A DNA stretch of 54,149 nucleotides, taken from the IMG/VR virus record IMGVR_UViG_3300050821_004373, positions 1-54,149 of that record; one strand, given 5' to 3'. The notes under the pieces are model-generated. The model did no database searches. It was given only the letters and a program-made list of their open reading frames with translations, and had not been told where the DNA came from. The DNA comes from a virus. The translations under genes were made by a program, and so were the position numbers. How positions within the stretch are numbered: position 1 is the first letter of the stretch; every line of letters starts with the position of its first letter. Positions 9,646 through 43,944 of the stretch are shown here, one piece after another.

Positions 9646-10074
9646 ATGTTCGCTCCAGTTACCGATTTAGTGTGGCGAGGGCCGCGGCCGCAAGGCAGCA
9701 CTGACTTTGCATCAGTCAGGGCTTCGTTCAAGTCCGTTGTCTCCCTTGAAGGCATGGCCGAAGACCAAAAGGAAATGGTCGAACTGGCTCCGGTCCCGGT
9801 AATCTCCTGCCCTATCGTGTTCTCCGAAATCTACTTCACGGGAATCACCGAGAGTAGGCTCAATGCCATTCTTGGAGAGATTGCCGCCGCACCGAAGCCT
9901 GTTCTCGTGCATTGCCAACATGGGGAGGATCGTACCGGGCTCATCATTGCGGCCTACCGCGTCAGAGTATGCCTCTGGACGAAAGACGCCGCGATGAAAG
10001 AGGCTTTGGCTTACGGGTACAGAAATTGGCTTAACTTTGGAATCAACAAAACATGGGCAAACTTCACGGAATAA
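9646..10074 (+). CDS. Tyrosine/dual-specificity phosphatase-like protein
   Basis: A 142-residue protein with GAGGAGGG before the ATG. Residues about 88-97 read VHCQHGEDRTG, the HCX5R P-loop signature of cysteine phosphatases, with Cys as nucleophile and Arg for phosphate binding. The N-terminus has WRGPRPQG, which matches the usual opening of bacterial dual-specificity-type phosphatases, and a VVSLEG strand. The general-acid Asp is not certain. It may dephosphorylate host proteins or small phosphorylated molecules. In a phage early operon this is uncommon; the substrate is unknown. Confidence 0.8.
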   Translation: MFAPVTDLVWRGPRPQGSTDFASVRASFKSVVSLEGMAEDQKEMVELAPVPVISCPIVFSEIYFTGITESRLNAILGEIAAAPKPVLVHCQHGEDRTGLIIAAYRVRVCLWTKDAAMKEALAYGYRNWLNFGINKTWANFTE

Positions 10075-10102: not shown

Positions 10103-10771
10103 ATGGATCTCGCAAGAAGGCGATTCGTTCAAAAGGCTCCCTTAGCCGCTCTCGGGCTGTTCACGTTACGCGCGGCCGGGTACTCGTTGCTCTCGCTACT
10201 GTCGTTCGGCTGTACTGGTGGAGTGTTCTCGAATATCCTCAACTGGATTCCTGTCGGAGAAGCGGCCGTCAACTCGATCCTCTCTGTTCTCTCCGCAAAC
10301 GGTGTAATCATCCTCCCAGGCCTTCAAACGTACATCTCGCTCATTGAAGCGGGCTTCACGGCGCTCACTGCGGCGGTCAATGAATATCAGAGTACGACTC
10401 CTCCGCCTGTCGGCACGCTTGCCAAGATCGAGACTGCATTCCATGACGTCGTGGACAATTTTAAGACCTTCTTTGCGTCCCTGAACGTCTCCGGTGGGCT
10501 ACTGGCAATCATCGTAGGACTCGCCCAGGTCGTTCTTTCGACTATCGCGGCCTTTATGAACCAACTCCCCGCCGCGGCCACGCTACGGCGCACGGTGGCT
10601 GTTGGGCATGTATTCCTCGTGGGTAACGCGACTGCCACCATCGTACCGAAGCAAAGAACGCGGAGAGCCTTTAAGCGCGACATGAATGCCGTCCTTGACG
10701 GTGGGCCGAGTGCCGGAGTGGTGATTCCGCCGTCCGCACGGCTTCGGCTGTCCTTCTGGGAGCGTTTCTGA
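10103..10771 (+). CDS. Tat-signal exported protein, unknown
   Basis: A 222-residue protein starting at ATG 10103, with AAAGGAGAA upstream. The N-terminus is a clear twin-arginine signal: RRRFVQKAPLAALGLF and a hydrophobic core ending near SFGC. The Cys could be a lipidation site, though the lipobox is not canonical. The rest is alternating hydrophobic and amphipathic helices (IIVGLAQVVLSTIAAFM), rich in Ala, Val and Thr, with a basic C-terminus. It should cross or sit at the inner membrane. Export by the folded-protein pathway is odd for an early phage gene. Function unknown. Confidence 0.7.
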   Translation: MDLARRRFVQKAPLAALGLFTLRAAGYSLLSLLSFGCTGGVFSNILNWIPVGEAAVNSILSVLSANGVIILPGLQTYISLIEAGFTALTAAVNEYQSTTPPPVGTLAKIETAFHDVVDNFKTFFASLNVSGGLLAIIVGLAQVVLSTIAAFMNQLPAAATLRRTVAVGHVFLVGNATATIVPKQRTRRAFKRDMNAVLDGGPSAGVVIPPSARLRLSFWERF

Positions 10772-11028: not shown

Positions 11029-11814
11029 ATGTCAGACTCAATGTTCGGTCGCATCCCACCGCGTAAATCAGGGATGTTAGGCAAGAAGCCGAAGCGGTTA
11101 GACCCGCGCACTATCCAACTCGCCAAGTACGTTCCCGCTGGCGCTCCGCCCGTACCTCCATCCGTAGAATACTGGCAAAAGCGACTCGGTTACTGGACGA
11201 TGGCGATGAACGATACGGTAGGCGATTGTACGATAGCCGCTGCCGCGCACATGGTCATGCTGTGGAGCGCGTTCTCCGGGAAAGAGTTCATCCCGAACGA
11301 TGCCCAAGTGATTGCCAACTACTCCGCGATCACCGGATACAAGCCCTCTGACCCGAATACCGATCAGGGCGCCGTGGAGCTCGATGTCCTGAACTACTGG
11401 CGTAATAAAGGAATGATGGGGAGGCCGATTGAGGGTTACGCGGCCATCAACATCAAGAATCAGGAACAGATTCGGCAGGCCATCTATCTCTTCGGCGGGG
11501 CATATATTGGCTTCAATGTCCCACAGAGCGCGATGGACCAGTTCAACGCAGGACAGCCGTGGGACGTCGTAGCGAACGACGGCGGGATCGTAGGGGGCCA
11601 TGCGGTACCCGTCCTGGGCTACGACTCCCAATATCTCTACTGTGTGACCTGGGGTTCTGTCGAGAAGATGACTCCGGCATTCTGGGATACCTACGTAGAC
11701 GAAGGCTATGTCCTGTTGAGTCCGATGTGGTTTGATGCCCGCGGGAAGACTCCAGCAGGCTTCGGCGTAGCGGAGTTACGCGCGGATCTCGGTTTATTTG
11801 GCAAGCATCCTTGA
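11029..11814 (+). CDS. Papain-fold cysteine-protease-like protein
   Basis: A 261-residue protein; ATG 11029 is preferred to GTG 11017. The sequence MNDTVGDCTIAAAAH has a Cys at the start of a helix as in papain-like enzymes. GGHAVPVLGYD supplies the His in a beta strand, and VTWGS follows with the usual aromatic-Gly context. This order (Cys helix, His strand, Asn/Asp-Trp region) fits a C39/C1-like fold. It may process a peptide or be an inactive structural relative. The preceding 50 residues are basic and Pro-rich. Its stop overlaps the next TTG start. Confidence 0.6.
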   Translation: MSDSMFGRIPPRKSGMLGKKPKRLDPRTIQLAKYVPAGAPPVPPSVEYWQKRLGYWTMAMNDTVGDCTIAAAAHMVMLWSAFSGKEFIPNDAQVIANYSAITGYKPSDPNTDQGAVELDVLNYWRNKGMMGRPIEGYAAINIKNQEQIRQAIYLFGGAYIGFNVPQSAMDQFNAGQPWDVVANDGGIVGGHAVPVLGYDSQYLYCVTWGSVEKMTPAFWDTYVDEGYVLLSPMWFDARGKTPAGFGVAELRADLGLFGKHP

Positions 11815-12617
11815 AGCGCGTCATCGCCTACAGTTCAGGAAAAGATTCCGCAGCGTTAGTGCTTTGGGCCAAAGAGCAATTCCCCGCCTACGAAATCATC
11901 GTAATCTTCAATGACACAATTTGGGAACATGAGTTGACCTACGGGCATATCGCGGCTATGCGTGATGATCTTCTGCTCGACCTGACTTTTCACGTCCTTC
12001 CGTCAATAGGAATGGAGAAGTTGGTTGAGATTAAGAAGCGCGTGCCTTCCGCGAAGGCACGGTTCTGCACCGAGGCCCTGAAAGTCGAACCTTGCATTGA
12101 TTTTCTGCGGACTATCCAAGATGAGTTTGAGTTGTATGACGGCAAGCGAAGAGAAGAAAGCGATGCCCGGGCGCAGATTCCTGACCGCGAATGGTCCGAT
12201 CGGTACGACTGCTATGTGAATCATCCACTCGCGGCGTGGACTGTCGAGCAAGTTTTTGCGCTCGCGGCAAAGTACAATATCAAGCCGAATCCTCTCTATC
12301 TCAAAAATGCTGGCCGGGTAGGATGCTTTCCTTGCGTACTAATCAATCACCGCGAGTTGAAAGCATTCCTGCTTGACCCGGAACTCGGCCCTGAAGTGAA
12401 GCGGAGAATCCGCCTACTAGAGAAAATCTGCGGGAGAAGTTTCTTTCCTCCGAATTACATCCCCAAGAGATACCAGACGGGATTCGATCCGAAGAGTGGC
12501 AAGAAGTTTTGTTGGTCCGACGACGTGTTCACCTATCTAGATATGAAAACGATGGCCGAGTTACCTTGGGAAGAGTCGAAGAGTTGCATGAGTATCTACA
12601 ACCTCTGTGGGCGTTAG
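11811..12617 (+). CDS. PAPS-reductase/PP-loop family protein
   Basis: A 268-residue protein from TTG 11811, overlapping the previous stop. It opens with MKRVIAYSSGKDSAAL, the SGGKDS-type PP-loop that binds ATP or PAPS in the adenosine phosphosulphate reductase superfamily. AKARFCTEALKVEP, GRVGCFPCVLINHRE and a late Cys pair (SCMSIYNLC) give Cys residues like those in phage PAPS-reductase-like and DndC-like proteins. Members reduce sulphate adducts or thiolate nucleic acids. In phage this could supply sulphur for DNA or tRNA modification, but the substrate cannot be read here. Last gene of the plus arm; it converges with the late operon. Confidence 0.75.
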   Translation: MKRVIAYSSGKDSAALVLWAKEQFPAYEIIVIFNDTIWEHELTYGHIAAMRDDLLLDLTFHVLPSIGMEKLVEIKKRVPSAKARFCTEALKVEPCIDFLRTIQDEFELYDGKRREESDARAQIPDREWSDRYDCYVNHPLAAWTVEQVFALAAKYNIKPNPLYLKNAGRVGCFPCVLINHRELKAFLLDPELGPEVKRRIRLLEKICGRSFFPPNYIPKRYQTGFDPKSGKKFCWSDDVFTYLDMKTMAELPWEESKSCMSIYNLCGR

Positions 12618-12877
12618 AGCCACGTCCCCAGTGTCCACTTAGCGAGCAGTCCTAATCCTCCACCAAGCAACGCGCCTACGATTCCAGCGAGTAAGAGCCA
12701 GCCGAGAAGCGATCTGACTATAGAGAAGAGGCTAACTTCTTTTTGTAGTATGACCTCATTACGCTTGCGGAGTGTTCTGCCCTGAAGTTGGGGTCTTCCA
12801 AGACCTTCCTTCCGTACCACTTCCGCGCTCTCGCACGATTGCACTCTGAGCATTGGCGTTTCCCGGCAACGATACAC
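12614..12877 (-). CDS. Possible membrane peptide at the end of the late operon
   Basis: The last 35 residues form a strong hydrophobic, Gly-rich segment (SLLGWLLLAGIVGALLGG) ending TLGTWL. The upstream part of the frame lies inside the HNH gene and looks like a shadow. No ATG or GTG is present between the HNH stop and the hydrophobic part, so either it starts inside the HNH gene or its N-terminus was lost when the HNH gene moved in. Weak call. Confidence 0.25.
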   Translation of the reverse strand: MYRCRETPMLRVQSCESAEVVRKEGLGRPQLQGRTLRKRNEVILQKEVSLFSIVRSLLGWLLLAGIVGALLGGGLGLLAKWTLGTWL

Positions 12878-14292: not shown

Positions 14293-14736
14293 TTATACCA
14301 CAGTCCGAGGCTTCCAAAAGCGAAGTCTTGAGATATTAACTGTGTTCACCCAGTTGGTCTCTAGCCCCCAATGAGCGGGGAAACCGATCGAGGTGTCGTA
14401 GTAGTTGATGGCCCCGTCCGTGTTGTCCGGGTCTAGCCCGCACGGAACCCATAAGCAGGAGGCCTGACACTTAATCCAAGATGGATCGTCGTCCGCCGGC
14501 CACTTTTTATCGTTAGCATCTCCGGGGTTGAAAGAACTAAACTGGAACGGCTGTAGAATCACGGCATGGTAACTGCCCTTTTTATGACCGTTGTACCAGG
14601 CGGGAGTAAGTGTCCGGTTTCTAATAGAATGAGCAACCGCACGCTGGCCTTCGGTGGGCTCTCCCCGGGCTTCCCGCCAGTCGCAGAGCGACAGAATTTC
14701 AAGTTCCGTTAGTTCCTCATACGGCTTTGCGAACAT
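14293..14736 (-). CDS. SleB-like cell wall hydrolase (endolysin)
   Basis: A 147-residue protein. The sequence WREARGEPTEGQRAVAHSIRNR contains the catalytic Glu and the EGQxAVAxxIxNR motif of the SleB/hydrolase-2 family of lytic transglycosylase-like enzymes, which cleave the glycan strand of peptidoglycan. QPFQFSSFN matches the downstream conserved Gln-Phe-Ser region. There is no signal peptide, so it should need a holin, and several membrane proteins are encoded next to it. It overlaps the next-upstream gene by 20 nt. Confidence 0.85.
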   Translation of the reverse strand: MFAKPYEELTELEILSLCDWREARGEPTEGQRAVAHSIRNRTLTPAWYNGHKKGSYHAVILQPFQFSSFNPGDANDKKWPADDDPSWIKCQASCLWVPCGLDPDNTDGAINYYDTSIGFPAHWGLETNWVNTVNISRLRFWKPRTVV

Positions 14737-16008: not shown

Positions 16009-16397
16009 GAATTTCTATCCTGTGTGTCCACGATATGCTGTTTAGCTTCGTGCTCTGCTAGTTTTTCTTTCGCTTTGTTAAGTTCGTCGAGATTCCCCTG
16101 TGTCCGGTCATTCTGGTAGATGAGAGCTGACTTTGCCACGATGAGCGCCAAGGCAATCCCGTATTGACTGTTCACTAGAGTATGCGTTTTCTCGGCCAGT
16201 ACTAAGATTTGTCCTTGCTGCGCGGTTGCCTCAGCAACCTTCTCGGCCACGACAGCGGCCTTCGATGCCACGGTATCAAGTTTCACTTCCGCACGCTTGG
16301 CAAGCGACAAGTTCACCATAGCGTTTATGGTCGGCGGGATAGTAATAATCGCGGTCGTCGCTAGCATGAACCAGCCTGCAGGAATGTTCTCAGTCAT
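16005..16397 (-). CDS. Membrane protein with coiled coil
   Basis: A 130-residue protein with an N-terminal hydrophobic segment (WFMLATTAIITIPPTINAMV), a long Ala/Val/Glu helix (AAVVAEKVAEATAQQGQ), a second weak hydrophobic stretch (GIALALIVAKSALIY) and a charged helical tail. Resembles the 15506 protein in layout. It may be a second lysis-related membrane protein; no family. Confidence 0.5.
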   Translation of the reverse strand: MTENIPAGWFMLATTAIITIPPTINAMVNLSLAKRAEVKLDTVASKAAVVAEKVAEATAQQGQILVLAEKTHTLVNSQYGIALALIVAKSALIYQNDRTQGNLDELNKAKEKLAEHEAKQHIVDTQDRNS

Positions 16398-17017
16398 TTT
16401 TTCTTTCCCGGCAATGATGTTTTTACGCTAAATCCCACAGCCATCGAAGCCATCGGCGCCGGGCAGGTCCATACCATCGGGCCGATTCCCGCCTGCGTGA
16501 TGATGGTCCCGTCCCAAGGATTGACCACCTGCGCGTTACCGCTCGCTCCGCCGTTCATACCGATACCAGCGGCAAACGTGAAGTCTCCCGGCTGTGGAAC
16601 GAGAATGCGCGAGCCAAGGGACTGCCATTCACTTACGGCGATCGAGGCGGCGATGGATAACCCAGATGGCTCGTTCGGGCCAAGGAAGATGTAGGCGTGA
16701 ATGGTGTTGGATGCCGCGGCCTTGATATTCGAGCAGCGCCAGAGAGATAGTTGCTGGTTGCCATTCGTGACTGACCCAAGGACGGCGCAGAAGTTTCCTG
16801 ATGTGTCAGAGACACGTACCTTATCGTTAGCGGGATCGGCGGAGCAAGCACTCTCGCAGAAGGCTACCGCCACCAGATTATCGTCTCCGATTACCTGATT
16901 GGAAAGAGTGACGGCCACGGAGCCGTTCTTAGACCTAGAGGATGCAACTTGTATGAGAGAAGGCTGCGCTGGCACGGATAGCGCCAATAGGAGAGCGAGA
17001 TTTAATAAGACCATCAT
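16394..17017 (-). CDS. Secreted protein, unknown (Sec signal)
   Basis: A 207-residue protein. It has a classic Sec signal peptide (MMVLLNLALLLALSVPAQPS, cleavage likely after the AQ). The mature part is beta-rich with Thr/Ser/Gly and several Cys (VAFCESACSADP, FCAVLG, LWRCSN), suggesting disulphides formed outside the cytoplasm. The C-terminus (MVWTCPAPMASMAVGFSV) continues the beta pattern. It belongs to the exported tail-like block 16394-23493. No family. Confidence 0.6.
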   Translation of the reverse strand: MMVLLNLALLLALSVPAQPSLIQVASSRSKNGSVAVTLSNQVIGDDNLVAVAFCESACSADPANDKVRVSDTSGNFCAVLGSVTNGNQQLSLWRCSNIKAAASNTIHAYIFLGPNEPSGLSIAASIAVSEWQSLGSRILVPQPGDFTFAAGIGMNGGASGNAQVVNPWDGTIITQAGIGPMVWTCPAPMASMAVGFSVKTSLPGKKK

Positions 17018-17337
17018 TTAGAAATATCTGCCTCTGCTTCTCCTAGTAAGGACAACCTATGAACTAGTTGGCCTCGCCCATCTACTTGGTATTTCTGGTA
17101 CAGGCTTGAAGCATAAAACTTTACCGTGCGCTCTGATAGTTCAAGGGTGCTGGCGATCTCTTTGTTGCATTTCCCTTGGACTATCAGTTTCATCACCTGA
17201 TTTTCCCTTGCAGTGAGTTCGATGCCTCCGGAATGCACATTGAAAATAGGCTTTTCTAGGTCGAGAAATAAAGGCAGTTTCCCGATAACAATATTCCCTT
17301 TCGGGGTTAGTGCAGTTAGTTGGATTTCTATTTTCAT
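17014..17337 (-). CDS. LuxR/GerE-type helix-turn-helix regulator
   Basis: A 107-residue protein; ATG 17337 overlaps the previous stop (ATGA), and the longer frame upstream is a shadow. Residues about 43-100 are the GerE domain: IELTARENQVMKLIVQGKCN, KEIASTLELSERTVKFY, then SSLYQKYQVDGRGQLVHRL. The domain binds DNA as a dimer and is normally a transcription activator. The first 40 residues are beta-rich and do not look like a receiver. Its place between exported tail-like genes is unusual and suggests control of this block or of host surface genes. Confidence 0.8.
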   Translation of the reverse strand: MKIEIQLTALTPKGNIVIGKLPLFLDLEKPIFNVHSGGIELTARENQVMKLIVQGKCNKEIASTLELSERTVKFYASSLYQKYQVDGRGQLVHRLSLLGEAEADISK

Positions 17338-17981
17338 TGGTACTTTAACTGCACAAGCCGCAAATCCGTCGCCGGGCTGGACGGCGTGCTCACCTGCACC
17401 GCTCCGCTTGGCTTTGTCCAACTAGTATTGAGCACCGTGATGCTTCCGGGAGTCAGCGTAGGCGAGGACAGGACTTCCCCTGCCGCATCCGTGAACTTAA
17501 TCACGCAACTCTGCGTCATGCACTGGACGGCGATGCTCGTCATAGTGACGTTGGTCGGCAGAACGAAGTTTCTTGCTACGCCGAGCATCGCTGGCGCTAC
17601 TCCCTGACCAGTCGCCGTCCACTGTCCGGTGTTCCACTGGATGCCACTATCTGATCCGTTGAGCGGCCCAGTGGGGAAGGCGGTCAGGTCAACCGACGTA
17701 GCCGCAGGTGGCGGGGGAGGCTGAATCAGCGTGGCAAGTTGAGCCTGCAAGGTGGCGATTTGTGCTTGCATGATGGTCATCTGAGCCGCTTGCTGGTTAA
17801 CGACTCCCACGAGCGCATTCTCGTTGACCTGAACTTGCTGCATCCATGCTGTAGCGGCAGTAGCGTAGGCGAGTCCTGGAGTAGCCACGTCGGGCCACGA
17901 GGGGATTGTGATGGCGGTTGGAGCTTGCGCCTTTAGCGGAACGGCCAACATCAAAAGACTAATAATAATCAGTTTTTTCAT
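17334..17981 (-). CDS. Secreted tail-like protein with coiled coil
   Basis: A 215-residue protein. A Sec signal (KKLIIISLLMLAVPLKAQA) is followed by a helical segment with Gln/Ala heptads (QQAAQMTIMQAQIATLQAQLATL), a Pro-rich hinge and a beta-sandwich-like C-terminus with Cys pairs (VQCMTQSCVIKFTDAAGEV). A trimeric coiled coil plus a beta C-terminal domain is typical of phage fibres, but the signal peptide is not. It overlaps both neighbours by 4 nt. Confidence 0.6.
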   Translation of the reverse strand: MKKLIIISLLMLAVPLKAQAPTAITIPSWPDVATPGLAYATAATAWMQQVQVNENALVGVVNQQAAQMTIMQAQIATLQAQLATLIQPPPPPAATSVDLTAFPTGPLNGSDSGIQWNTGQWTATGQGVAPAMLGVARNFVLPTNVTMTSIAVQCMTQSCVIKFTDAAGEVLSSPTLTPGSITVLNTSWTKPSGAVQVSTPSSPATDLRLVQLKYQ

Positions 17982-18469
17982 GGATTTACCACCACGTTAT
18001 AGGCTGTGTTATTGGGCGTACTTAAGACTAGAGCACATTCCTTCACGGTTACGGTGTTCGCGCTACTTACGAAGGCGTTCCAAACGATCCCTATACCAGG
18101 GTCATTGACAGGGGTTGCTATTGCAGGCATCGAAGTGGTTGCTCCTGTAACTGTCACTGTTCCTGTATTACACGAACCTAGCGGTAATGATGTTCCAGTG
18201 ATCGTCCCTGTGGACGCTCTCATGGGCGAAAGCATTACAGTCGCTAAAGTATCGGTTGCCTTACACACCGATAGTTGATTCGTGTTGGTGTTAAAGAATA
18301 GCGTACCAAGCGTGCAATTCGTCGGAGCCGAAGAGACAATCGTTACTTGTCCACCGACTGTCTGGTTTTGCGCCTTTGAAAAAACTAAAGTTAACATCAA
18401 AATAGAAACAATGACCCCGAACAGTAGGAAGACAACACGAACTGCAAATAATGATTTTTCTGCTTTCAA
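17978..18469 (-). CDS. Exported beta-rich protein with N-terminal anchor
   Basis: A 163-residue protein with a long N-terminal hydrophobic segment (VVFLLFGVIVSILMLTLVF), a signal anchor or signal peptide, and a Thr/Val-rich beta domain (TGTVTVTGATTSMPAIATPV) with conserved-looking Cys (TNCTLGTLFF, SVCKAT, LGSCNTG, VKECALV). The mature domain would be outside the membrane and could be trimeric. Member of the exported tail-like block. Confidence 0.55.
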   Translation of the reverse strand: MKAEKSLFAVRVVFLLFGVIVSILMLTLVFSKAQNQTVGGQVTIVSSAPTNCTLGTLFFNTNTNQLSVCKATDTLATVMLSPMRASTGTITGTSLPLGSCNTGTVTVTGATTSMPAIATPVNDPGIGIVWNAFVSSANTVTVKECALVLSTPNNTAYNVVVNP

Positions 18470-18479
18470 CGAACGCCTC

Positions 18480-20948
18480 CTAATTACTCAGAATCGGTGA
18501 AATATTGTAACTCACGCTAAAGTTGGTCGGTGGCGTCGTGCAGGTCCCAGACGTGTTCGTGACTTGAATCGTCCCAACGGGAGCCGCTTGTCCGTATGGC
18601 TTGAAAATTGTGGTGCCTACTCCGCTGCTCACGTCAACTGAACTATCCCAAAGCGATTTTGCGGTTGTTATCGTCAAGGTGATTGTTCCGATTCCATCGG
18701 AGATCGTCACTACCGGAGCCACGCTGCAAGCCGTCACTGTCGTAGATGAGGCTTTCACGTTCGTGACATTCGTGAACGATTGCAACTTGAACGCGCACAT
18801 CGGAGCGCCGGTTACGGTGGCACCGAACGTACCAGTCACGTAGCAGGTATTAGGAATGGGATTGTTGAGCAGGGCTTTTGGGAGATTTCCTGAATATTGC
18901 TGGAGGTTGCGACAGGAGACTACTCCTCCTGCTCCTAGAGCGCCAAGGTTCGATCCTGCTGTCGTGTAAGTAAGGGTTGTTGCGGTTACTGCTGTGATAC
19001 CTGCCCCAGATGGATAATAGCCGTTATAGCCTGGTATTCCTGCACCCTCCACGAACAATGCATCTCCGACTGAGCAGTTTGTATTTACGTTCGTACCGTT
19101 TGCGTTCAGCGTCAGCACGGCGGTAGTGGTCGTAGACGTTCCGCTAACAATCTGGTACATCGTCTCGCAAGAATTTCCTCCGTTATCGAAGAACGAGCCG
19201 GAATTGTTGATGCACTTGCCCGTCCCTGTAGCGATAGAACGCAAGTCTGTCGCTTGGAGCACGCCGCCAGCTAGAATTGTGGGGCCGGAGTTGTTGCCAT
19301 CATTTCCGAATGTGCCGCAAAGCCCCCCCTCCCAATGAACAAAGGAAGTGCCATCTTGCTGAAAGCAAGAACCGCTGCCTGTTCCGAACAATGAGACGCC
19401 ATGCAACCAGAGTCCTTGAGAGTTCACTACGCGAAAGCAGTCGGACCCGCCGCACTCATCGCCTAGCCCACCCCAAAGATGCAGTCCGTTGTTGATGTTG
19501 GAATCAGTTACGTTTTGAATGAGGATATTTCTAAATCCTGACGCGCTGTTTGATACGCTCCACTCACGCCAATCCCCGGTGCAGCCGTTACAGTTAACTC
19601 CTGTGCCATTCTGCGTGTCCACAATCCAGTTGATAGCGTTGATGTTCGCTTGCGTAAATACTCCACCGCCCCAACCACCCTGCGAAATATGGACATTCCT
19701 AAGAATCATGGACGAGGTGTTATATAGAGCGTAGCCAAAACCTCCCGTAGCGACCGGGATGAACCCTCCATTAAAATTTATGTTTTCGATGATTAGACCT
19801 GTCATGTTGGTGTTGCTAACCCAGTAGCCGAATCCCGTCATCGTGGGAGAATTGTCGCAGTTGTACAGATTGGTGCTCTCGAACGTATCTCCAAGAATCT
19901 TGAATCCCTTTTTGCCTACCGAAAAATTGAACACAGGATTCCCGCCAGTCGCGCAGGCCATCCAGCCGCCACCAGGAAAATAAAGCACTGGAGCAGCGGT
20001 TTGCACCTGTCGATTGCCTTGCCCTTGACCTGTACCACCTTGAGACTGCGCCAAAGCGGCAGCATAAGCAGCAGCAATGGCCGCATCATCAGGCGTACCG
20101 ATGGTCAGTGTGCAGACGTTTCCTCCTGTAGTTACGGCGCTTAGCTGAGCTACCGTCGCGCTCGTGATGCTTGAAATTGTCGAGCCGATGGCGAGTTGTG
20201 TCGTCCCGCCCTGAAAAGAGCACTGCGCTCGCAATCCAACATCGGCAGCCGTAAATAGACCACTCGGGCTAGGGCAACTTATCTGTGAAGCGGAGGGCGT
20301 ACAATTAGAAATCTGACGCGAATTGTGAAACGCTCCAGGATAATTGGCTACGTTGAAAACTGGCCCTGGACCGGATTGAGATAGCGACAATGGCGAATTT
20401 AGAGCAACGGTATCTATAAATCCAGTACCGGTCGGGATGATTGATCCGCCAGAGGCCACGGTTTGAGGTGAAGTTATGGGAAAACCAGATCCGCTACCAA
20501 CAGTTGGGATCGTCGCCGCTACAGCTTTTAGAGAAGTAGAAATATCCACGGACGCACCGCTGACCTGCGTTCCCGTAGTAGTATAGGTAAAGCATGGAAG
20601 AGCGACAGGTGGGAACACGACCGCTATCTGTGCCGGGTTGGCGCAAATCCTAAAAGTCCACTGTATACCTAGAGGAGTTATCTGCGTCACAGAAGGAAGA
20701 ACAATAGTTAACGTACCAGTAGAAGAAAGTGATTGTCCGGAAAATACCTGCTGAAATGACGCGTTACCTCCAAATAGTGCCTGCTGTCCGGAGTTATTTG
20801 ATAGAGTGACGTTGTAGGAACCGAGTGCATATACAGTTGCGGAAGCACTGTTATCAGTGACTGTAGCTGTTACTGTTGTAAAGGATTGTGCCGCCGATCC
20901 GTGGGTAACCGCCAACCAAAGAAGAATAGCGAATAGTAGTTTTTTCAT
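18480..20948 (-). CDS. Exported beta-helix tail/spike protein
   Basis: An 822-residue protein starting with a Sec signal (KKLLFAILLWLAVTHGSAAQ). The next 100 residues are strands beginning FTTVTATVTDN, similar to the other large exported protein. From about residue 330 the sequence has short turns and right-handed beta-helix-like repeats with many Asn/Gly stacks (GLIIENINFNGG, SMILRNVHISQGG, INWIVDTQNGTG), typical of pectate-lyase-like spikes, followed by a Thr/Val-rich C-terminal domain. Beta-helix spikes bind or cut surface polysaccharides. No catalytic residues were identified. Confidence 0.65.
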   Translation of the reverse strand: MKKLLFAILLWLAVTHGSAAQSFTTVTATVTDNSASATVYALGSYNVTLSNNSGQQALFGGNASFQQVFSGQSLSSTGTLTIVLPSVTQITPLGIQWTFRICANPAQIAVVFPPVALPCFTYTTTGTQVSGASVDISTSLKAVAATIPTVGSGSGFPITSPQTVASGGSIIPTGTGFIDTVALNSPLSLSQSGPGPVFNVANYPGAFHNSRQISNCTPSASQISCPSPSGLFTAADVGLRAQCSFQGGTTQLAIGSTISSITSATVAQLSAVTTGGNVCTLTIGTPDDAAIAAAYAAALAQSQGGTGQGQGNRQVQTAAPVLYFPGGGWMACATGGNPVFNFSVGKKGFKILGDTFESTNLYNCDNSPTMTGFGYWVSNTNMTGLIIENINFNGGFIPVATGGFGYALYNTSSMILRNVHISQGGWGGGVFTQANINAINWIVDTQNGTGVNCNGCTGDWREWSVSNSASGFRNILIQNVTDSNINNGLHLWGGLGDECGGSDCFRVVNSQGLWLHGVSLFGTGSGSCFQQDGTSFVHWEGGLCGTFGNDGNNSGPTILAGGVLQATDLRSIATGTGKCINNSGSFFDNGGNSCETMYQIVSGTSTTTTAVLTLNANGTNVNTNCSVGDALFVEGAGIPGYNGYYPSGAGITAVTATTLTYTTAGSNLGALGAGGVVSCRNLQQYSGNLPKALLNNPIPNTCYVTGTFGATVTGAPMCAFKLQSFTNVTNVKASSTTVTACSVAPVVTISDGIGTITLTITTAKSLWDSSVDVSSGVGTTIFKPYGQAAPVGTIQVTNTSGTCTTPPTNFSVSYNISPILSN

Positions 20949-20958
20949 AGTAAGTACC

Positions 20959-23493
20959 TCAATTACACACCCACACTCCGTTCAAACTTTTCGCTAACCC
21001 TCCCGTCCCACCGCCAGCACAAGGATTAGTGACCGTGCAATCACTACAACCAATGAACGTGACTCCTGTGGGTGGAGTTCCTAGATTGGCAAACGTACTA
21101 ACTCCAGGGCGAAATCTCTGGCTTCCAAACATCGCAAGCTCACCAGCCGCCCCTACTGTAGAATAGGGCGACAAATTTAACGCGATTTCATATAACTCGT
21201 TGTCGGATTTGGTCCCTACGGGAATTTTAATTAAGGTGGGAGCGAACACATCCATAACAGCAGGATTGGTGACCGGGACACTCATGGCCAATCCAGCGGT
21301 ATTGGGATTAGTTGCAATCTTGCATATTCCAGAGTTCCATATCCATTGCCCGTCACCTGAAAGCTGAGAGAATAAGTTAGTCCCTTGTGCCGACCCTCCC
21401 ACACAAGTATCGTTCACGCCTTGCCCATTAGAGTTTAGGTTGAACTTTACGCCACCTCCGCTTAAGGCTCCACCAGAGTTTGATCGTTCCCATGCGCCAT
21501 AAATATAAGCATCTCCCACGGTTATGGTGGCACCCAAGCTGCTAAACACATCTACGCTGGATGTACCAGCAGTAGAAGTAATTCGTCCAGCACCAGTGCC
21601 GCCATACACATCCGATATTCCTCCGGTGATGGTCCCGGAACCAGTTTCAAATATCCAAGATGCGGGAGCCGTAGAAGCGAGATTGGGAGAAATAATGGTA
21701 ACTGGCGCCCCACTGCGACGCGCCACATCAATACCGCCTCCTGTAAAGCGGCCAAAGATACTATAGCCAACATGAAGCTGACGAAGATCACTGACTACCG
21801 GGTCTGAAGCAGTGCCTCCCAAAGTCAAGGCAGGTCCTTTTACACCACCATCTACACGGGATACTATGACCGCGGGGATATTGAAATTATCGACTTGTAC
21901 TCCAGGGACCGGGGTAATGTTATCCGATACTTCTACGTTTTCCACCACTACATTCATTCCCGCTCCATTTGAGGTAGCTGTACCTGAAGTTACCAACACC
22001 TCGGGCATGTCAGGATTGACACCATCGCCCTCGTAATCACCATTGCGAATATACATTCCAGCGCCTTGGTTACCGGGGACGATGCGAATGCCGCCACTGT
22101 TGGTCTGGAAATTATCAAGGAAGATTAGCCCTGAGCCGGACCCTCCTCCGGCATCGTGGTTAATGGCGGCTTTGGCAGAAGTGACTACTTGCCCATTGCC
22201 ACTAGTGGCGTTAGGCCCTATCTGTGTATAGGTGAACTGCGTAGAGGAATTAACTGCCAAAACTTTGAAAGAACCATTAAAACTTGGGTCTGTTGCATTC
22301 TGAATGGTTACCCACTGCGTAGTGCCCGCACTAATGCTTGCTGCTGCGGTTGTATTTACAGTGACTACGTTTGCAGACCGGCTCAGACCGGGAGTGCCAG
22401 GAGCGGCAATGGTCAGTTCGCCAAAGCTACAACCTGAACCGTTGATATTACGAAGCCAAATCCAGAAAGTGTTAGATCCGATATCCATTCCCGGACCGCC
22501 ACCGAAGCGGCAGTTACCGTGATTCCACGACACTCCATCCATCGACACGCTTGATACTCCACCAGCGGCAGTTGCACGATTATTATTTGAATCGATCCCG
22601 ATTTTAATATACGTATTTATAAAATTACTAAGGCCGATATTTTTAATATTTATAGATGTTGTAGCTGACAGCCATATGGAGGGATGCACCAAATCGGTTT
22701 GGCCCCCACCATTCATCGTACATGCCGGCGTATGGGCATGAGCAAACTGAATCGGCGGGAAGATACACTCTATATCGATCGGCCCGGAACTATTTTTTAG
22801 TAGCCATCCCAAAGGAGGAGATGCTGAGTTGGGATCTAAGGACCCCATAATCCACATCCCTTGATTAACTGCGGGTCCTCCGTAATTAACTACTCCGCTC
22901 ACCATGATCTTTCCGGAACCAACTACTCCCGCTGAACCTCCGGGCAACGCTTGTAAAGCGGCATAGACGGTTAGTTTTGCACTCCCCCAAGAAAGACCGT
23001 CCTTTAAATCGTTCCCGTTAGGAGACACAAATTGTATAGGATCTCCAGGTAAACTAGGCTTTAGTGATGCCGCTGTAGAGCCGAGTGAAGCCGCACAACC
23101 TTGTAAGGCCGCGGAGATATTTTGAGTTGCTCCGGTAATCGTAATATTACAGCCGAACGCAGTCTTACCGTCTTGGGAAACAATCCCGAAGTGCCACATG
23201 GAACCCGGGGGAGTAGTGTGGCCGTCAGAGATCAGATTGTTATCTGCCAGGACAGCAGTAAACGCTCCAAATGAATCGCAGGCCGCAATTGGTACACTGG
23301 TTTGAAAAGTAGAACCGCTTAACAGAGGAACCTGAGTAGCTCCAGGGCTAGGAACGAAATCAATATTTCCTCGGCACCCGGAATATGGTATTCCACCAGG
23401 ATCGACAACTATTGCAGAGACAGTCGTGAACTGCGCTTGAGCAACATGCCCGAACGCGAGCAGTAACAGTATCCCTAGAATCCACCGCTTCAT
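20959..23493 (-). CDS. Exported beta-helix tail/spike protein
   Basis: An 844-residue protein with a Sec signal (KRWILGILLLLAFGHVAQAQ). The mature start (FTTVSAIVVDPGGIPYSGC) parallels that of the 18480 protein, and both have Cys pairs. The centre is rich in Gly/Asn/Thr with regular hydrophobic strands (INIKNIGLSNFINTYIKIG, MNVVVENVEVSDNITP), consistent with a right-handed beta-helix. The tail has a Cys motif CSDCTVTNPC and ends SLNGVWVCN, possibly an autonomous cap. It is probably the main receptor-binding or depolymerase-like protein, secreted through Sec before assembly or acting outside the virion. Confidence 0.65.
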   Translation of the reverse strand: MKRWILGILLLLAFGHVAQAQFTTVSAIVVDPGGIPYSGCRGNIDFVPSPGATQVPLLSGSTFQTSVPIAACDSFGAFTAVLADNNLISDGHTTPPGSMWHFGIVSQDGKTAFGCNITITGATQNISAALQGCAASLGSTAASLKPSLPGDPIQFVSPNGNDLKDGLSWGSAKLTVYAALQALPGGSAGVVGSGKIMVSGVVNYGGPAVNQGMWIMGSLDPNSASPPLGWLLKNSSGPIDIECIFPPIQFAHAHTPACTMNGGGQTDLVHPSIWLSATTSINIKNIGLSNFINTYIKIGIDSNNNRATAAGGVSSVSMDGVSWNHGNCRFGGGPGMDIGSNTFWIWLRNINGSGCSFGELTIAAPGTPGLSRSANVVTVNTTAAASISAGTTQWVTIQNATDPSFNGSFKVLAVNSSTQFTYTQIGPNATSGNGQVVTSAKAAINHDAGGGSGSGLIFLDNFQTNSGGIRIVPGNQGAGMYIRNGDYEGDGVNPDMPEVLVTSGTATSNGAGMNVVVENVEVSDNITPVPGVQVDNFNIPAVIVSRVDGGVKGPALTLGGTASDPVVSDLRQLHVGYSIFGRFTGGGIDVARRSGAPVTIISPNLASTAPASWIFETGSGTITGGISDVYGGTGAGRITSTAGTSSVDVFSSLGATITVGDAYIYGAWERSNSGGALSGGGVKFNLNSNGQGVNDTCVGGSAQGTNLFSQLSGDGQWIWNSGICKIATNPNTAGLAMSVPVTNPAVMDVFAPTLIKIPVGTKSDNELYEIALNLSPYSTVGAAGELAMFGSQRFRPGVSTFANLGTPPTGVTFIGCSDCTVTNPCAGGGTGGLAKSLNGVWVCN

Positions 23494-33865: not shown

Positions 33866-34963
33866 TTAGAGCAGGTTCGTTACTTTCCCGCCCATTCTCG
33901 GGCTAAGGTCCGCCATATTCCAGGTGAGGTAGATGTTGCTTACTAATACACGTTGATTACTTGGTTTTACCCATGGGTCAATCACGAAGTAATCCGCTTC
34001 ATGGAAAACCGGGAACATATATTTCGTGTTAATCACGTAGGCCACGTTCGGTAGGCAGTTGCGGTCTGCGAGCACGACGCAGTTATTGAACAGGAAGTGG
34101 TAGCGGAAGCCTTGCTGCAATGCTTCCTTGTCCTGAATGTTTTCGGTGAAACGAGTCGTCGCCTGGAACACGCCCTTGAATCCGGCGTAGCGCGTATTAT
34201 CCATTACCATCAAGTCCGGCTCGTCGTAGCCGAATACTGTTGACCAATACAGCGCATCAGCGTTAGCGATCGAGAGCACAGCGCCGCCGCCAGCTACGTT
34301 CGCTTGCGGCTTCCAGAAAGCGTTCGCGGCAACGGAGCGGTCGATACCCGCGATTACGTTGGTCGTTAGTCCGATCCACGCATCAATCGAGTCGATGTCC
34401 AAAGCGGTATTCTGCGGAGCTACACCAAACAGCGACCGCGCCAACTTCTGCATGAAGGAACCGGCTGCCGTCTGGAACTTTTGCCGCACAATGTCTACGC
34501 CAGCGTAGCCACCGCGCCCGAGAATGATGTCGGTGTAAGGAAGCACTACCGCTTCGTAGTAGAACTTCCACTGTTGCTCGGCGGGCTGCACGACGTCTTG
34601 GAGAGCCGTATTGAGCAACTGGGCGCCGTAGTACGCGCCTCCGGTCGTTTCTTCCTGGAAGAACTCCGGATAGACAAGGGCGCCACCGGCCATCTTCTTG
34701 CCACGTCGCACCATTGCCCACATCGTCGGGCACGGGAGGAGCACTTGGTCACCGACCACGGGAGCGATGTACTTCTGTACCAAGGCCTGAACGGTGTTGA
34801 CGAGTTGAGCAGGTGGAGTGGCAATGCCTGTTCCGGTAACAGAAGAGGCAAGCTCAACCGGGCCAGAGTACTCGTAAGAGTCTCGCTCAATGACTTCCAT
34901 CGTCTCGATGTCATAGACGACGCGCGTTGAGATGAGCCTTGCCTTTTTCAGTTCGTCTAACAC
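33866..34963 (-). CDS. Major capsid protein
   Basis: A 365-residue protein. Mixed alpha/beta with an N-terminal helix, then strands and the segment WKFYYEAVVLPYTDIILGRGG. FGYDEPDLMVMDNTRYAGFKG resembles the A-domain loop of HK97-fold coat proteins used in short-tailed phages. QWK and aromatic-rich strands suit a shell lattice. It follows the scaffold-like gene and precedes a decoration-like one, the standard order. The ten codons from GTATTCGGC to TTGATG also occur in an early gene at 46485 (see findings). Confidence 0.8.
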   Translation of the reverse strand: MLDELKKARLISTRVVYDIETMEVIERDSYEYSGPVELASSVTGTGIATPPAQLVNTVQALVQKYIAPVVGDQVLLPCPTMWAMVRRGKKMAGGALVYPEFFQEETTGGAYYGAQLLNTALQDVVQPAEQQWKFYYEAVVLPYTDIILGRGGYAGVDIVRQKFQTAAGSFMQKLARSLFGVAPQNTALDIDSIDAWIGLTTNVIAGIDRSVAANAFWKPQANVAGGGAVLSIANADALYWSTVFGYDEPDLMVMDNTRYAGFKGVFQATTRFTENIQDKEALQQGFRYHFLFNNCVVLADRNCLPNVAYVINTKYMFPVFHEADYFVIDPWVKPSNQRVLVSNIYLTWNMADLSPRMGGKVTNLL

Positions 34964-38825: not shown

Positions 38826-40529
38826 TTATTTTTTAACACCCTTAGCCAGTGCTGCTAATTTGAGTTCCGCTTCAAGAGCCTCGCTTATTTCCTCATAGTC
38901 AGGTACGTCAAGCATTTGAAGTGCGTGCTTGCTATCAATTAAATTGGCCTTTTTAAGTTCAATGACCATCGCTCGGAGACTTGCTTGCGACATCGGACGT
39001 ACCGCGCCTTCCGGCACATACACTTCGTATTCATCGGAAGCGGAATCAGGTTTCCACTTCGCCACATTATCGCCATCCCGGAAGATTCTTTCTTCGGTGA
39101 ACGACTTGCTCATCGTGTAGAAAAGCAGATCGACGATTTTCTGTACGGAGTACGCGAAGAATCTTGCGGTAAGTCTGGTTCCTGCCTGCGACTGCGATAC
39201 AGCCGCTTCAAATAAATCCGGTCCTACGTTCCCCGGAGCCATGTTTCCTTGACGCGCGGGGGTAGCTCCCCGCAATTCCTTCTGTAATCCGAGATACGCT
39301 TGCGGCAGCGTAATCATCTGCGAAGGGAAAGGCGGAGGAAACTTGATGTCGATGCCCTGACCTGGGGGAGAGTTCGCCGCGACGACCACAATCTCTCCGG
39401 CGAGATTCGCAAATGTATTGGCCGTGACTCCGGTGCTCTCATGGATGACCACGACGCCGGAGTTCAGGCGCTTGGCGTTTTCGAACGTATTCGTCATCTG
39501 CTGTTCAGCGGCATCCTGCAAACTCTTCGTATACTTCATCGGCGCCGGACACCACACGTTTTTCCACGGAGGAGTTGCCCATACCGGAACCGCAGGCCAC
39601 ATATCGGGCAATGGTATCCACGACTCGCCGTCCGCTAGAATCGTTCCCTCGCATTCGACGATCATCCTGCCCACCGGATATTTCGGAAGTGCATCGGGGA
39701 TAGGTAGATTCTTTTCTGCGAACAGTGCGGCTTCCTTCTCCGTGACTTTCCGCATCGTGGTATCAAGGCAGTAGCATGTCCGACGCTTCATCAATCCATC
39801 GGTGTCGGTTTCCTCTCCGCTTGGAAGTCCGCGAGAGGTAATCGTCATCGGCCCGGGAGGAAGTTCAAGAGTTCCTGCAGGACCGCCAGCCATGCTCTCG
39901 GTTCGCGCCTTGGCTTTGTTGACGTTATCGGCGTGGTCCGGCGTTTCCTTCCTGATCTTATCGAGGTACACGTAGTCCTCGATAATCATCCATGACCAGT
40001 CTTCAGACCACGGGCTGCAGTAATCGACGTAGACGCTTCCCTGTCTCCGGGCACGCAACCACACTTCACCCTTGCCGCGGTTGGCGAAGGGGTCTCCTCC
40101 GGCTTGAATGAAAGCTGTCCCTGAGAATTGCGCGTAGACCTGAGCCATCAGAAGGTGCAAATTATAGAATTTCTTTTTCCAGTATTCTTGGAAGGCTTTC
40201 TCGCGTTCCTTGTCGCGCTCATCCTTCTTGTGGATGAACACGCGCATGTTGGTATCAGTGGCGTCGGCGGCTTCAGCTAAGAGGAGCAACTGTAACTGCG
40301 GAGCTTTAATTGAAGGACGCATCGACGGAGCACGTCTCGAAGATTCAAAAAGATTATAAAATTTTTCCACGGTCTCGTCGTGGTTCGGCCCGTAAATATC
40401 GCGGCGGGCTTCTTCTGATTGGCGCACCAGGTCGTCTATCTGCCTGCTCCTGATGTCTTTTCCAGACGTGTCGTTTTCTGTTTTCGGTGAGCCGGTCGCT
40501 GGCACTGTGCGGAACTGGGTATAGGCCAT
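38826..40529 (-). CDS. Portal protein
   Basis: A 567-residue protein. The N-terminus (RSRQIDDLVRQSEEARRDIYGPN) is helical, and a wing-like segment includes FIQAGGDPFANRGKGEVWLRAR and YVDYCSPWSEDW, with the long helical stem and C-terminal crown (YAFLGLQKELRG-type helices, then ALQMLDVPDYEEISEALEAELKLAALA). Length and arrangement fit the 12-mer portal of short-tailed phages, through which DNA is packaged and ejected. It lies upstream of scaffold and capsid genes and downstream of the terminase, the usual order. Confidence 0.75.
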   Translation of the reverse strand: MAYTQFRTVPATGSPKTENDTSGKDIRSRQIDDLVRQSEEARRDIYGPNHDETVEKFYNLFESSRRAPSMRPSIKAPQLQLLLLAEAADATDTNMRVFIHKKDERDKEREKAFQEYWKKKFYNLHLLMAQVYAQFSGTAFIQAGGDPFANRGKGEVWLRARRQGSVYVDYCSPWSEDWSWMIIEDYVYLDKIRKETPDHADNVNKAKARTESMAGGPAGTLELPPGPMTITSRGLPSGEETDTDGLMKRRTCYCLDTTMRKVTEKEAALFAEKNLPIPDALPKYPVGRMIVECEGTILADGESWIPLPDMWPAVPVWATPPWKNVWCPAPMKYTKSLQDAAEQQMTNTFENAKRLNSGVVVIHESTGVTANTFANLAGEIVVVAANSPPGQGIDIKFPPPFPSQMITLPQAYLGLQKELRGATPARQGNMAPGNVGPDLFEAAVSQSQAGTRLTARFFAYSVQKIVDLLFYTMSKSFTEERIFRDGDNVAKWKPDSASDEYEVYVPEGAVRPMSQASLRAMVIELKKANLIDSKHALQMLDVPDYEEISEALEAELKLAALAKGVKK

Positions 40530-41690: not shown

Positions 41691-41801
41691 TTACCTCCAA
41701 GGATTAGCAGTAATAAATCCCCATCCTAAAATGACGGCTCCAACAAAAACGCAGAAAATTAGAGCAATAATGAAAACTCGATTGGCGGTCTTTTCCGTCA
41801 C
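41691..41801 (-). CDS. 36-aa membrane peptide
   Basis: GTG 41801 overlaps the terminase stop (GTGA). One hydrophobic helix (VFIIALIFCVFVGAVILGW) and a short polar tail. It ends next to the next gene. Low-information but coupled to the terminase. Confidence 0.45.
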   Translation of the reverse strand: MTEKTANRVFIIALIFCVFVGAVILGWGFITANPWR

Positions 41802-43555
41802 CAGGCCACCTCTTCTTCAAATTCTTCATTCGGGAACTGTTTTACGCGCTTCATGATTTTGGCGTGGTGATTGATGAGCGACTGGTTGGCGTCGTCGAGA
41901 ATTGTATCGCCCTTCCCGGCCATCTTCATGCGTACCTCTTCGTCCTCTTCCTTTTCGTGAGTGACGGCAGGATTCATCGTGCGAGGCGGAGCGTACTGCC
42001 TCATGGCGATATTGGCGAGCATGGCTCCAAACAAAATATCGTCGTTCCCTTTCTTGATGTCCACCCGCCCCGTTTCTTTTCTGGTGGACATGCGAATCTG
42101 CGCGGAGAGAAGCGCGTCGAAGATTACGACACCGTACTCTCCGTTCGTCCCTCCGCCTTCTCTAAGCGCGGCTCTCATTCCTTCGTATAGCATCGCGCGT
42201 GTGTGTTGCGTCGTCTCGAACCATACCGCGTTCTTGCCGGTGGCCCACGATCCAACCTTGTCGTCCTTGCCCTTCCAGCGGTAGAGATTGGGATATTTGA
42301 GGATGTCACGGACTCCGGTGAGTGTCTGATACCCGTAGCCTCCGGTCAATTCGCCGTTTATCATCGCGCGGTTGTAGTGACGACCGAGAGAATTGAGATA
42401 GCACGCATGGACTTCTGGAACGACGTGCCCCACAAACCGAAATACTTGGTGCCCGGTATTCCCGTCGAAGCCCACATTCGCGGCAAAGTCCCGGCTATCC
42501 TTTTCGTCGTCGCCTCTTGCGGCGTCCGCACCGATATAGTAGAAGTGTCCCGGCTTAGGATCTTCCCAGATACAGAGTCCGCCGTTGTGATGCTCTCTGA
42601 GTTTCATGCTTCCGTCGTGGGTAACGTCGATGAACCCCTGCCATTTCGGAGGCTTATTGTTCTTTGCGGCCCACGCACGCTCGATTTCTTCGAACGCCGG
42701 AGAACCGGATACGATAAACGATTCTTCCCAGTCGGTCGGAAATTCCTGATGGAAGAGTTCGACGCTGCCGCCGCACTCCGGAGAATTAATCTTCCAGCGG
42801 CGCCACGCGAGTTGTTCCATTGACGCGCCGCGCTTCAGCAAGGCTCTCTCTTCCTTGTCGAGAGAACCGCGCTCCGCGATCGAGACTTCCGCAACACAGG
42901 CTTCGTCATCAAGCCAGGAAAGGAATACAGGTTCGTATTCGCTCTTGCAGTTGATGGCGTCAACCCACATTTCGTAAAAAATAGCTCCATCTCCATCCTG
43001 TCCGTTCGGAGTAGATTCGATAATTACGATGGTGTCCTTGTGCTCGGAAACCGCCGGCAGAACGGACGTATAGATTTCTCCACTGCCTTTATAGTGCGCG
43101 GCTTCTGAAAGGTGAAGGCCCGAGAGTGTAAACCCACGGCCGGAGGTATCTTTTCCGGCGGTGACGATCTGCATGAGTCCGTCTCCGTCTTCGTGCGGGA
43201 AGGTAATCTCGCGTTCGACATCGCGGAGATTCAGGAACTTGGCCTGCTTTGCGAGGTTCTTTGGAATCGAGAAGAGAGCTTTCGACGACTTGAACTCATG
43301 CGCGGCAATCAGAAAGTGCGAACCGGGCAGCCAACAGCAATGACAGAATCCGAGTCCTTCGGACCAAGAGGAGACTCCTACGCGGCGAGCCTTATCGACC
43401 ACGATGCGGACAGGCTTCCCGTCTTCTTGTTGCTTGAGGGCCGCGTTGTGAATAATTCTCTGATTCTTTTTGAAAATAAAGGGAACCCGCTTATGAGAGT
43501 CGCGGTCTTTTATGGTAAACCGGGAGAGGAATTTCTCTGCGGCTTTTAAGTTCAT
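41798..43555 (-). CDS. terL: Terminase large subunit
   Basis: A 585-residue protein; ATG 43555 overlaps the HNH stop (ATGA). The ATPase part has RIVVDKARRVGVSSWSEG (Walker-A-like, with an Arg-rich P-loop as in many phage terminases), FTLSGLHLSEAAHY (Walker B/catalytic region) and IIESTPNG (coupling motif). The C-terminal nuclease has FYYIGADAARGDDEKDS (first acidic residues), a central ELTGGYG and FDALLSAQ/GNDDILFGAML (last acidic residues). It packages DNA into the head through the portal and cuts the concatemer. A homing-endonuclease gene abuts it. Confidence 0.85.
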   Translation of the reverse strand: MNLKAAEKFLSRFTIKDRDSHKRVPFIFKKNQRIIHNAALKQQEDGKPVRIVVDKARRVGVSSWSEGLGFCHCCWLPGSHFLIAAHEFKSSKALFSIPKNLAKQAKFLNLRDVEREITFPHEDGDGLMQIVTAGKDTSGRGFTLSGLHLSEAAHYKGSGEIYTSVLPAVSEHKDTIVIIESTPNGQDGDGAIFYEMWVDAINCKSEYEPVFLSWLDDEACVAEVSIAERGSLDKEERALLKRGASMEQLAWRRWKINSPECGGSVELFHQEFPTDWEESFIVSGSPAFEEIERAWAAKNNKPPKWQGFIDVTHDGSMKLREHHNGGLCIWEDPKPGHFYYIGADAARGDDEKDSRDFAANVGFDGNTGHQVFRFVGHVVPEVHACYLNSLGRHYNRAMINGELTGGYGYQTLTGVRDILKYPNLYRWKGKDDKVGSWATGKNAVWFETTQHTRAMLYEGMRAALREGGGTNGEYGVVIFDALLSAQIRMSTRKETGRVDIKKGNDDILFGAMLANIAMRQYAPPRTMNPAVTHEKEEDEEVRMKMAGKGDTILDDANQSLINHHAKIMKRVKQFPNEEFEEEVAW

Positions 43556-43944
43556 ATCTTGCGCCGTTCTAATTCGTTGTGGCAACGGGCGCACTGCCAA
43601 TCCACTTCGAGAGGCTTCTTGTAGTTTTTGTGATGGCCTTGAAGTCCACTGCGACCATCACTTCTTTTCTTTGGAACATTGCCGCAGACAGAACATTTCG
43701 TTGGACGAGAAATTTTCCCTTTTATTATTGCTTTAGACACCGCCATTCTTGCGAGAACCTTTTCTCGCTGTTCCGGGTCTTCTCGGTAGCGCCGCATATT
43801 ACGTTCATTTTCCTTCTGCATTTTTCCTGCTCTGCGGCGGCTATTACGAGCAAAGTCTCTTTTGTACGCACGGAATGATTCTGCATCTCTATGGTTGAGA
43901 TACCACTCTCGCATGTACTCAGATTCCCTACCGGCCCACCTCAT
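43552..43944 (-). CDS. HNH-type nuclease-like protein
   Basis: A 130-residue protein. A very basic helical first half (RAYKRDFARNSRRRAGKMQKEN) is followed by CSVCGNVPKK, then GLQGHHKNYKKPLEVDWQCARCHNELERRK: two CxxC knuckles around the catalytic HH pair. The 51380 product has the same HHxDYxKPLxVxWLCxxCH core. Likely a small DNA-nicking HNH enzyme. It overlaps the terminase start. Confidence 0.75.
   Translation of the reverse strand: MRWAGRESEYMREWYLNHRDAESFRAYKRDFARNSRRRAGKMQKENERNMRRYREDPEQREKVLARMAVSKAIIKGKISRPTKCSVCGNVPKKRSDGRSGLQGHHKNYKKPLEVDWQCARCHNELERRKI

Follow-up and report, generated by a model that had tools for sequence, protein, structure and literature searches.

Tail proteins of tailed phages normally assemble in the cytoplasm, and the locus described here raises the question of whether some of these phages complete their tails elsewhere. 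The analyzed DNA, hereafter the window, is the IMG/VR virus record IMGVR_UViG_3300050821_004373, 54,149 bases of an uncultured phage that were read from sequence alone. As originally predicted, five genes on its minus strand, two of them encoding putative tail spikes, begin with signals for the Sec export system; we refer to these genes by their lowest coordinate (Table 1). The original prediction posed the problem as one of secretion or of assembly at the envelope, and this proved to be the right issue. The signals are genuine and unusual, and export of the spikes is strongly supported, because cysteines of a shared N-terminal domain (N-domain) occur in pairs and the domain boundaries are exact. 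Sequence comparison likewise supports disulfide-type cysteine pairs, a signal in place of the initiator methionine, clade-wide occurrence of the arrangement, and the position of the spikes in the operon.

Export signals of the tail-block proteins

Every called gene of the window was scored for Sec/signal peptidase I signals with our own rule set, which considers a positive n-region, a 9-residue hydrophobic core, and the -3/-1 rule. The five best scores belonged to genes 20959 (6.27), 17334 (5.81), 18480 (5.52), 17978 (5.06), and 16394 (4.89), and the sixth (4.71) to a Tat-like lipoprotein. All five signals combine a positive n-region, an h-region, and an A-x-A type c-region, except that the n-region of 16394 has no K or R. 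Q occupies position +1 in 55 of 84 signals, which show canonical n-, h-, and c-regions. Shine-Dalgarno sites precede 20959 (AGGAG), 18480 (GAGG), and 17978 (AGGAGG), the starts of 17334 and 16394 are ATGA overlaps with the preceding gene, and in neither spike does another in-frame start preceded by a ribosome site lie between the signal methionine and the mature domain. The signals of a window spike and of its homolog in G006 align without gaps and differ mostly by conservative amino acid changes. That these segments might be internal helices, a possibility raised at the outset, is excluded by their N-terminal position, their ribosome sites, and their absence from close orthologs.

For 17978, a signal anchor had been proposed. 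Its hydrophobic core is indeed long, but a cleaved signal appears at least as likely, because the protein reads SKA/QNQTVG (slash, predicted cleavage site) where a relative starts with MATTQTVG.

Occurrence in related phages

A scan with the major capsid protein of the window as bait yielded 23 related loci, and a profile scan confirmed 128 stretches, 80 of which were kept; we read whole or partial records of 18 relatives and, for 19 more, the tail regions. In most relatives, two to seven consecutive signal-bearing proteins of up to 2,478 amino acids directly follow an internal-type protein of 400 to 850 amino acids, and in nearly all relatives examined the genes of this block lie inside the late operon. 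Among genes for at least 250 amino acids in sixteen relatives, signals were detected in 31 of 44 tail-block genes versus 3 of 239 genes elsewhere (Fisher p ~1e-27). This enrichment is not due to chance, and one of the three positives outside the block belongs itself to the N-domain family and is displaced. Tail regions of the nineteen further relatives showed the signal-bearing pattern almost throughout, whereas the 51 late genes scored in four cultured relatives were all negative.

Signal-less records (G001, G003, G015, G020, and G021) require three changes on the capsid tree, and G003 is mixed, with a collagen-like protein that bears a signal and two spikes that do not. The records L199 to L201 lack this capsid protein and also possess a signal-bearing N-domain; the arrangement therefore crosses phage lineages. 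In two relatives, a signal-bearing N-domain gene lies close to the capsid gene and thus a long way upstream from the spike block (L075:5369-6889 in G017 and L182:750-2933 in G043).

A signal in place of the initiator methionine

Spike 1 lacks a signal in three related records, L002 (body 78% identical) and L003 and L004 (64%). These orthologs occupy the same genomic place and start with MAQYTLITGTVRDP and MAGYTTVTGTVLDP; at the corresponding position, the window has AQA followed, across the predicted cleavage site, by QFTTVSAIVVDP. The start of the mature protein thus coincides with the start of the signal-less ortholog, and the signal takes the place of the initiator methionine. The same switch was also seen in spike 2, in the 17978 family, and in a family of ~95 amino acids, and at least four tail-protein families include both signal-bearing and signal-less members. 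In G001 and G003, members of the ~95-amino-acid family retain a hydrophobic N terminus, with an internal ATG behind it. Where a gene of this family stands just before spike 1 (L030 and L032/L003), membrane-targeted and signal-less forms may be possible from one gene.

Paired cysteines in the N-terminal domain

A profile built from the ~125 residues with which the mature proteins begin retrieved 44 usable copies of the N-domain, located directly behind the signal in 37 and directly behind the methionine in 7, and joined to very different protein bodies. AlphaFold2 confidently predicts a beta-sandwich for the copy in spike 1. Its nearest PDB folds in Foldseek are intradiol-dioxygenase-type sandwiches, without a significant E-value; a role as an auxiliary dioxygenase was rejected, considering Foldseek E-values above 0.02, no PDB sequence match, and fusion to tail proteins.

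Structural disulfides normally form only outside the cytoplasm, and they predict that cysteines are gained and lost in pairs. At domain columns C20 and C51, both cysteines are present in 20 copies, a single one in none, and neither in 24 (Fisher p = 5.7e-13), and columns C79 and C90 are nearly always paired (23:1:2:18; p = 3.3e-9), where both p values treat sequences as independent and the tree implies about three changes for C20/C51 and about ten for C79/C90. The number of cysteines is even in 36 of 37 signal-bearing N-domains, and the signal-less copies have 0, 0, 0, 0, 1, 2, and 4. Signal-less G015, G020, and G021 are nested in a supported clade (98/93) of signal-bearing copies with C20 and C51 and have lost both cysteines, while in G004 the two were lost together and the signal was retained. 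Cysteines of the N-domain thus appear and vanish in pairs, as expected for an oxidizing compartment. Signal-positive tail proteins contain 2.0% cysteine, compared with 1.0% in other large proteins of these phages, and none is present in the two window proteins (393 and 783 amino acids) encoded immediately ahead of the block.

Nature of the spikes

Neither window spike matched Pfam, PHROGs, or NCBIfam. Low-confidence models of the bodies gave weak Foldseek matches to phage fibers and spikes, namely to HK620, CBA120, and K2-2 for spike 1 and to Kp7 gp52 and K2-2 for spike 2, and a block protein of L201 has a subthreshold Beta_helix match. The prediction of two long beta-helix proteins of tail-spike type is plausible, though weakly supported. 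Block proteins of some relatives contain CBM5/12, GH30-like, or choice-of-anchor D domains. One of them, a signal-bearing protein of 934 amino acids (L056:14523-17324 in G013), is distantly similar to GH30 glucuronoarabinoxylan xylanase.

The phage and its late genes

The late module runs on the minus strand from ~45 to 14 kb and comprises terminase, portal, capsid protein, further virion genes, the spike block, and a cell wall hydrolase. The capsid protein is distantly related to those of Myxococcus phage Mx8 (27% identity) and Stenotrophomonas phage BUCT555; together with the portal, terminase, and gene order, it places the window among Mx8/P22-like podoviruses, and the record probably derives from a P22/Mx8-like phage with a short tail whose host is a soil bacterium not yet in culture. 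The gene order is the same in the annotated regions of four Mx8-like relatives, in which the last large gene after the internal-protein genes encodes a tail-fiber-like or hypothetical protein, and the spike block has the position of this last large late-operon gene in BUCT555 and ctMlz233. No other receptor-binding candidate, with or without a signal, was found in the window between the internal-protein gene and the hydrolase gene. The suggestion that the signals mark an unusual release route was not borne out: the tail block is followed by the hydrolase (PF07486) and membrane proteins, release looks ordinary, and no gene for a secretion or budding apparatus was recognized in the window.

Table 1. 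Signal-bearing tail-block genes and late-module landmarks of the window
Feature	Coordinates	Strand	Remarks
Tail spike 1 (putative), 844 aa	20959..23493	-	Sec signal MKRWILGILLLLAFGHVAQA, then Q; 14 Cys; signal-less orthologs in L002, L003, L004
Signal peptide of spike 1, codons 1-20	23434..23493	-	AGGAG ribosome site, 6 nt upstream of ATG
N-terminal domain of spike 1	23074..23433	-	C40/C72 (domain columns 20/51) and C115/C133; predicted beta-sandwich, pLDDT ~94
Tail spike 2 (putative), 822 aa	18480..20948	-	Sec signal MKKLLFAILLWLAVTHGSAA, then Q; 22 Cys
Signal peptide of spike 2	20889..20948	-	
N-terminal domain of spike 2	20454..20888	-	Family as in spike 1; end approximate
Small tail-block protein, 163 aa	17978..18469	-	Signal or anchor; relative L003:15064-15465 without signal
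Predicted exported protein, 215 aa	17334..17981	-	MKKLIIISLLMLAVPLKA, then QA; 2 Cys; ATGA overlap with 17978
Predicted exported protein, 207 aa	16394..17017	-	MMVLLNLALLLALSVPA, then QP; G006 relative also signal-bearing
Terminase large subunit	41798..43600	-	
Portal protein	38826..40529	-	
Major capsid protein, Mx8-like	33866..34963	-	Bait for the clade search
Protein directly preceding the spike block, 783 aa	24194..26545	-	Weak tape-measure match; position of an internal virion protein; neither signal nor Cys
Hydrolase_2-type cell wall hydrolase	14293..14736	-	PF07486; probable endolysin

Scans of 84,980 species genomes with the capsid protein and the N-domain identified, at the sensitivity used, no confirmed relative and no prophage of the capsid clade or with the N-domain. 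A tblastn search of phages and plasmids with the N-domain gave no match, nor did a scan of viral contigs with spike 2, a protein too mosaic for such a scan. From the style of the signals and the choice-of-anchor D domains, we would guess at a soil diderm host such as Acidobacteriota.

Several other features of these genomes deserve mention. Among the exported tail-block genes of the window, positions 17014-17421 (-) encode a 135-amino-acid protein that strongly matches the LuxR/GerE DNA-binding domain (1.7e-18). The Tat-like lipoprotein start mentioned above (RRRFVQK ... LSFGC) is at 10103-10771 (+), next to a gene at 11029-11814 (+), and would mark a second exported phage product. Twin-arginine starts occur in many relatives (e.g., G004, G013, G014, L002, and L171), several with a lipobox-like cysteine, and the twin-arginine protein of L002 adjoins a protein of ~265 amino acids. 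The early strand of the window encodes a RecT recombinase and a small dual-specificity/tyrosine phosphatase-like protein at 1667-3202 (+) and 9646-10074 (+). In G006, G012, G014, and G022, the capsid frame (e.g., L038 ~11558-12768) is broken near residue 60 by ~150 to 230 bases with stops; the interruption is possibly a small intron or intein remnant, and in G006 it had no Rfam match.

Comparison with known systems

The window resembles phages with P22/HK620-type tailspikes and Mx8-like podoviruses in its capsid protein, portal, terminase, and position of the spike block, as well as in the weak fold matches of its spikes to those of HK620, K2-2, and Kp7. It differs from the cultured Mx8-like relatives, with their signal-free late genes, in that its spikes are predicted preproteins with paired N-domain cysteines. 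Coat and tip proteins of filamentous phages are likewise virion proteins made with Sec signals, and they are assembled at the envelope; these phages are, however, unrelated and extrude without lysis, whereas the window represents a tailed double-stranded DNA phage with a cell wall hydrolase. Signal-bearing endolysins, such as Lys44 of fOg44 and the SAR endolysins, are phage proteins using the host Sec system but are lysis enzymes, often regulated by membrane tethering, and not receptor-binding or structural proteins (PMC6116005). The bacterial enzyme WceF of Pantoea is a trimeric beta-helix like a tailspike and is made with an export signal (PMC7949094). It shares this combination with the window spikes, as far as their weakly supported fold allows, but is encoded in an exopolysaccharide cluster, carries a Tat signal, and has no role in phage attachment (PMC7949094). 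Our literature searches, without most subscription journals and preprints, returned nothing relevant on export signals in tail proteins of tailed phages, and no receptor-binding protein with such a signal. The parts are familiar, and their combination appears to be new.

Proposed role of export

We propose that the phage synthesizes its receptor-binding spikes, together with small accessory tail proteins, in the form of Sec preproteins, which would be exported in late infection, cleaved mostly between A and Q, and then folded and disulfide-bonded in the periplasm. Heads, portal, hub, and internal proteins would meanwhile assemble in the cytoplasm. Once the lysis genes open the envelope, mature spikes would bind the particles via their N-terminal domain. 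P22 tailspikes bind finished heads outside the cell, which makes late joining physically plausible. Within this framework, periplasmic location, virion membership, and attachment at lysis are inferred, and we regard the whole of it, from Sec export through periplasmic oxidation and folding to attachment at lysis, as on balance probable. The chances are about even for the broader notion of a virion assembly split across the inner membrane, in which DNA-filled heads with a tail hub, formed in the cytoplasm, and disulfide-bonded spikes, matured in the periplasm, meet only at lysis and infectivity is completed outside the cytoplasm.

Several observations weigh against this proposal. Signal-less relatives show that export is dispensable for these spikes. 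The body models of both spikes are of low confidence (AF2 body pLDDT ~45), the signal predictor is our own unbenchmarked rule set and not SignalP, and the clade is known from uncultured sequence records alone. Ten body cysteines of spike 1 are retained in the signal-less orthologs; body cysteines were for this reason rejected as evidence of export, and cysteines outside the N-domain do not discriminate.

The main competing explanation, which we consider unlikely but worth serious attention, is that the exported proteins never join the particle and act as free enzymes or lectins in the periplasm or outside. As such, for example as depolymerases, they might remove receptor or exopolysaccharide ahead of lysis, aid the escape of progeny from debris or biofilm, prevent superinfection, or modify the envelope. 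The GH30-like xylanase and CBM5/12 domains in block proteins of some relatives fit such roles, as does the exported bacterial enzyme WceF with its tailspike fold (PMC7949094), and signals by themselves do not prove virion attachment. However, signal-less orthologs occupy the same place, the window would be left without a receptor-binding candidate in its late operon, and an N-domain shared over very different bodies resembles an attachment domain.

A far smaller probability falls to a signal that is not used for export, with the hydrophobic N terminus staying on a cytoplasmic spike as a membrane-active or hub-binding peptide. This would accord with the usual cytoplasmic assembly of tails and with the N-terminal hub-binding segments of several phage tail proteins, but not with canonical signal regions and their frequent Q at +1, with orthologs that work without the signal, or with cysteine pairs, which misfit folding in a reducing compartment. 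Slightly less probable still are lysogenic-conversion genes, inserted in the tail region and expressed from the prophage to alter the host surface, like lom of lambda. Exported proteins are known from lambdoid tail regions, but the genome scans described above detected no prophage, the genes are part of the late operon in almost every relative studied, and signal-less spike orthologs exist. An artifact of start choice or of the rule-based, unbenchmarked predictor is scarcely credible given the ribosome sites at the signal methionines and none at internal starts of the window spikes, the absence of positives among the late genes of cultured relatives and their rarity outside the tail block, and a boundary identical in dozens of diverged proteins.

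Implications for tailed phages

For receptor-binding proteins of tailed phages, the cytoplasm is the presumed site of folding and assembly. With dozens of clade members encoding spikes as predicted Sec preproteins and at least three changes between forms with and without a signal, the site at which a phage tail is completed becomes directly testable. For virome annotation, filters based on secretion signals may label such spikes as cellular or auxiliary genes. Should the spikes be enzymes, those exported ahead of lysis could also target the cell that made them, or its biofilm.

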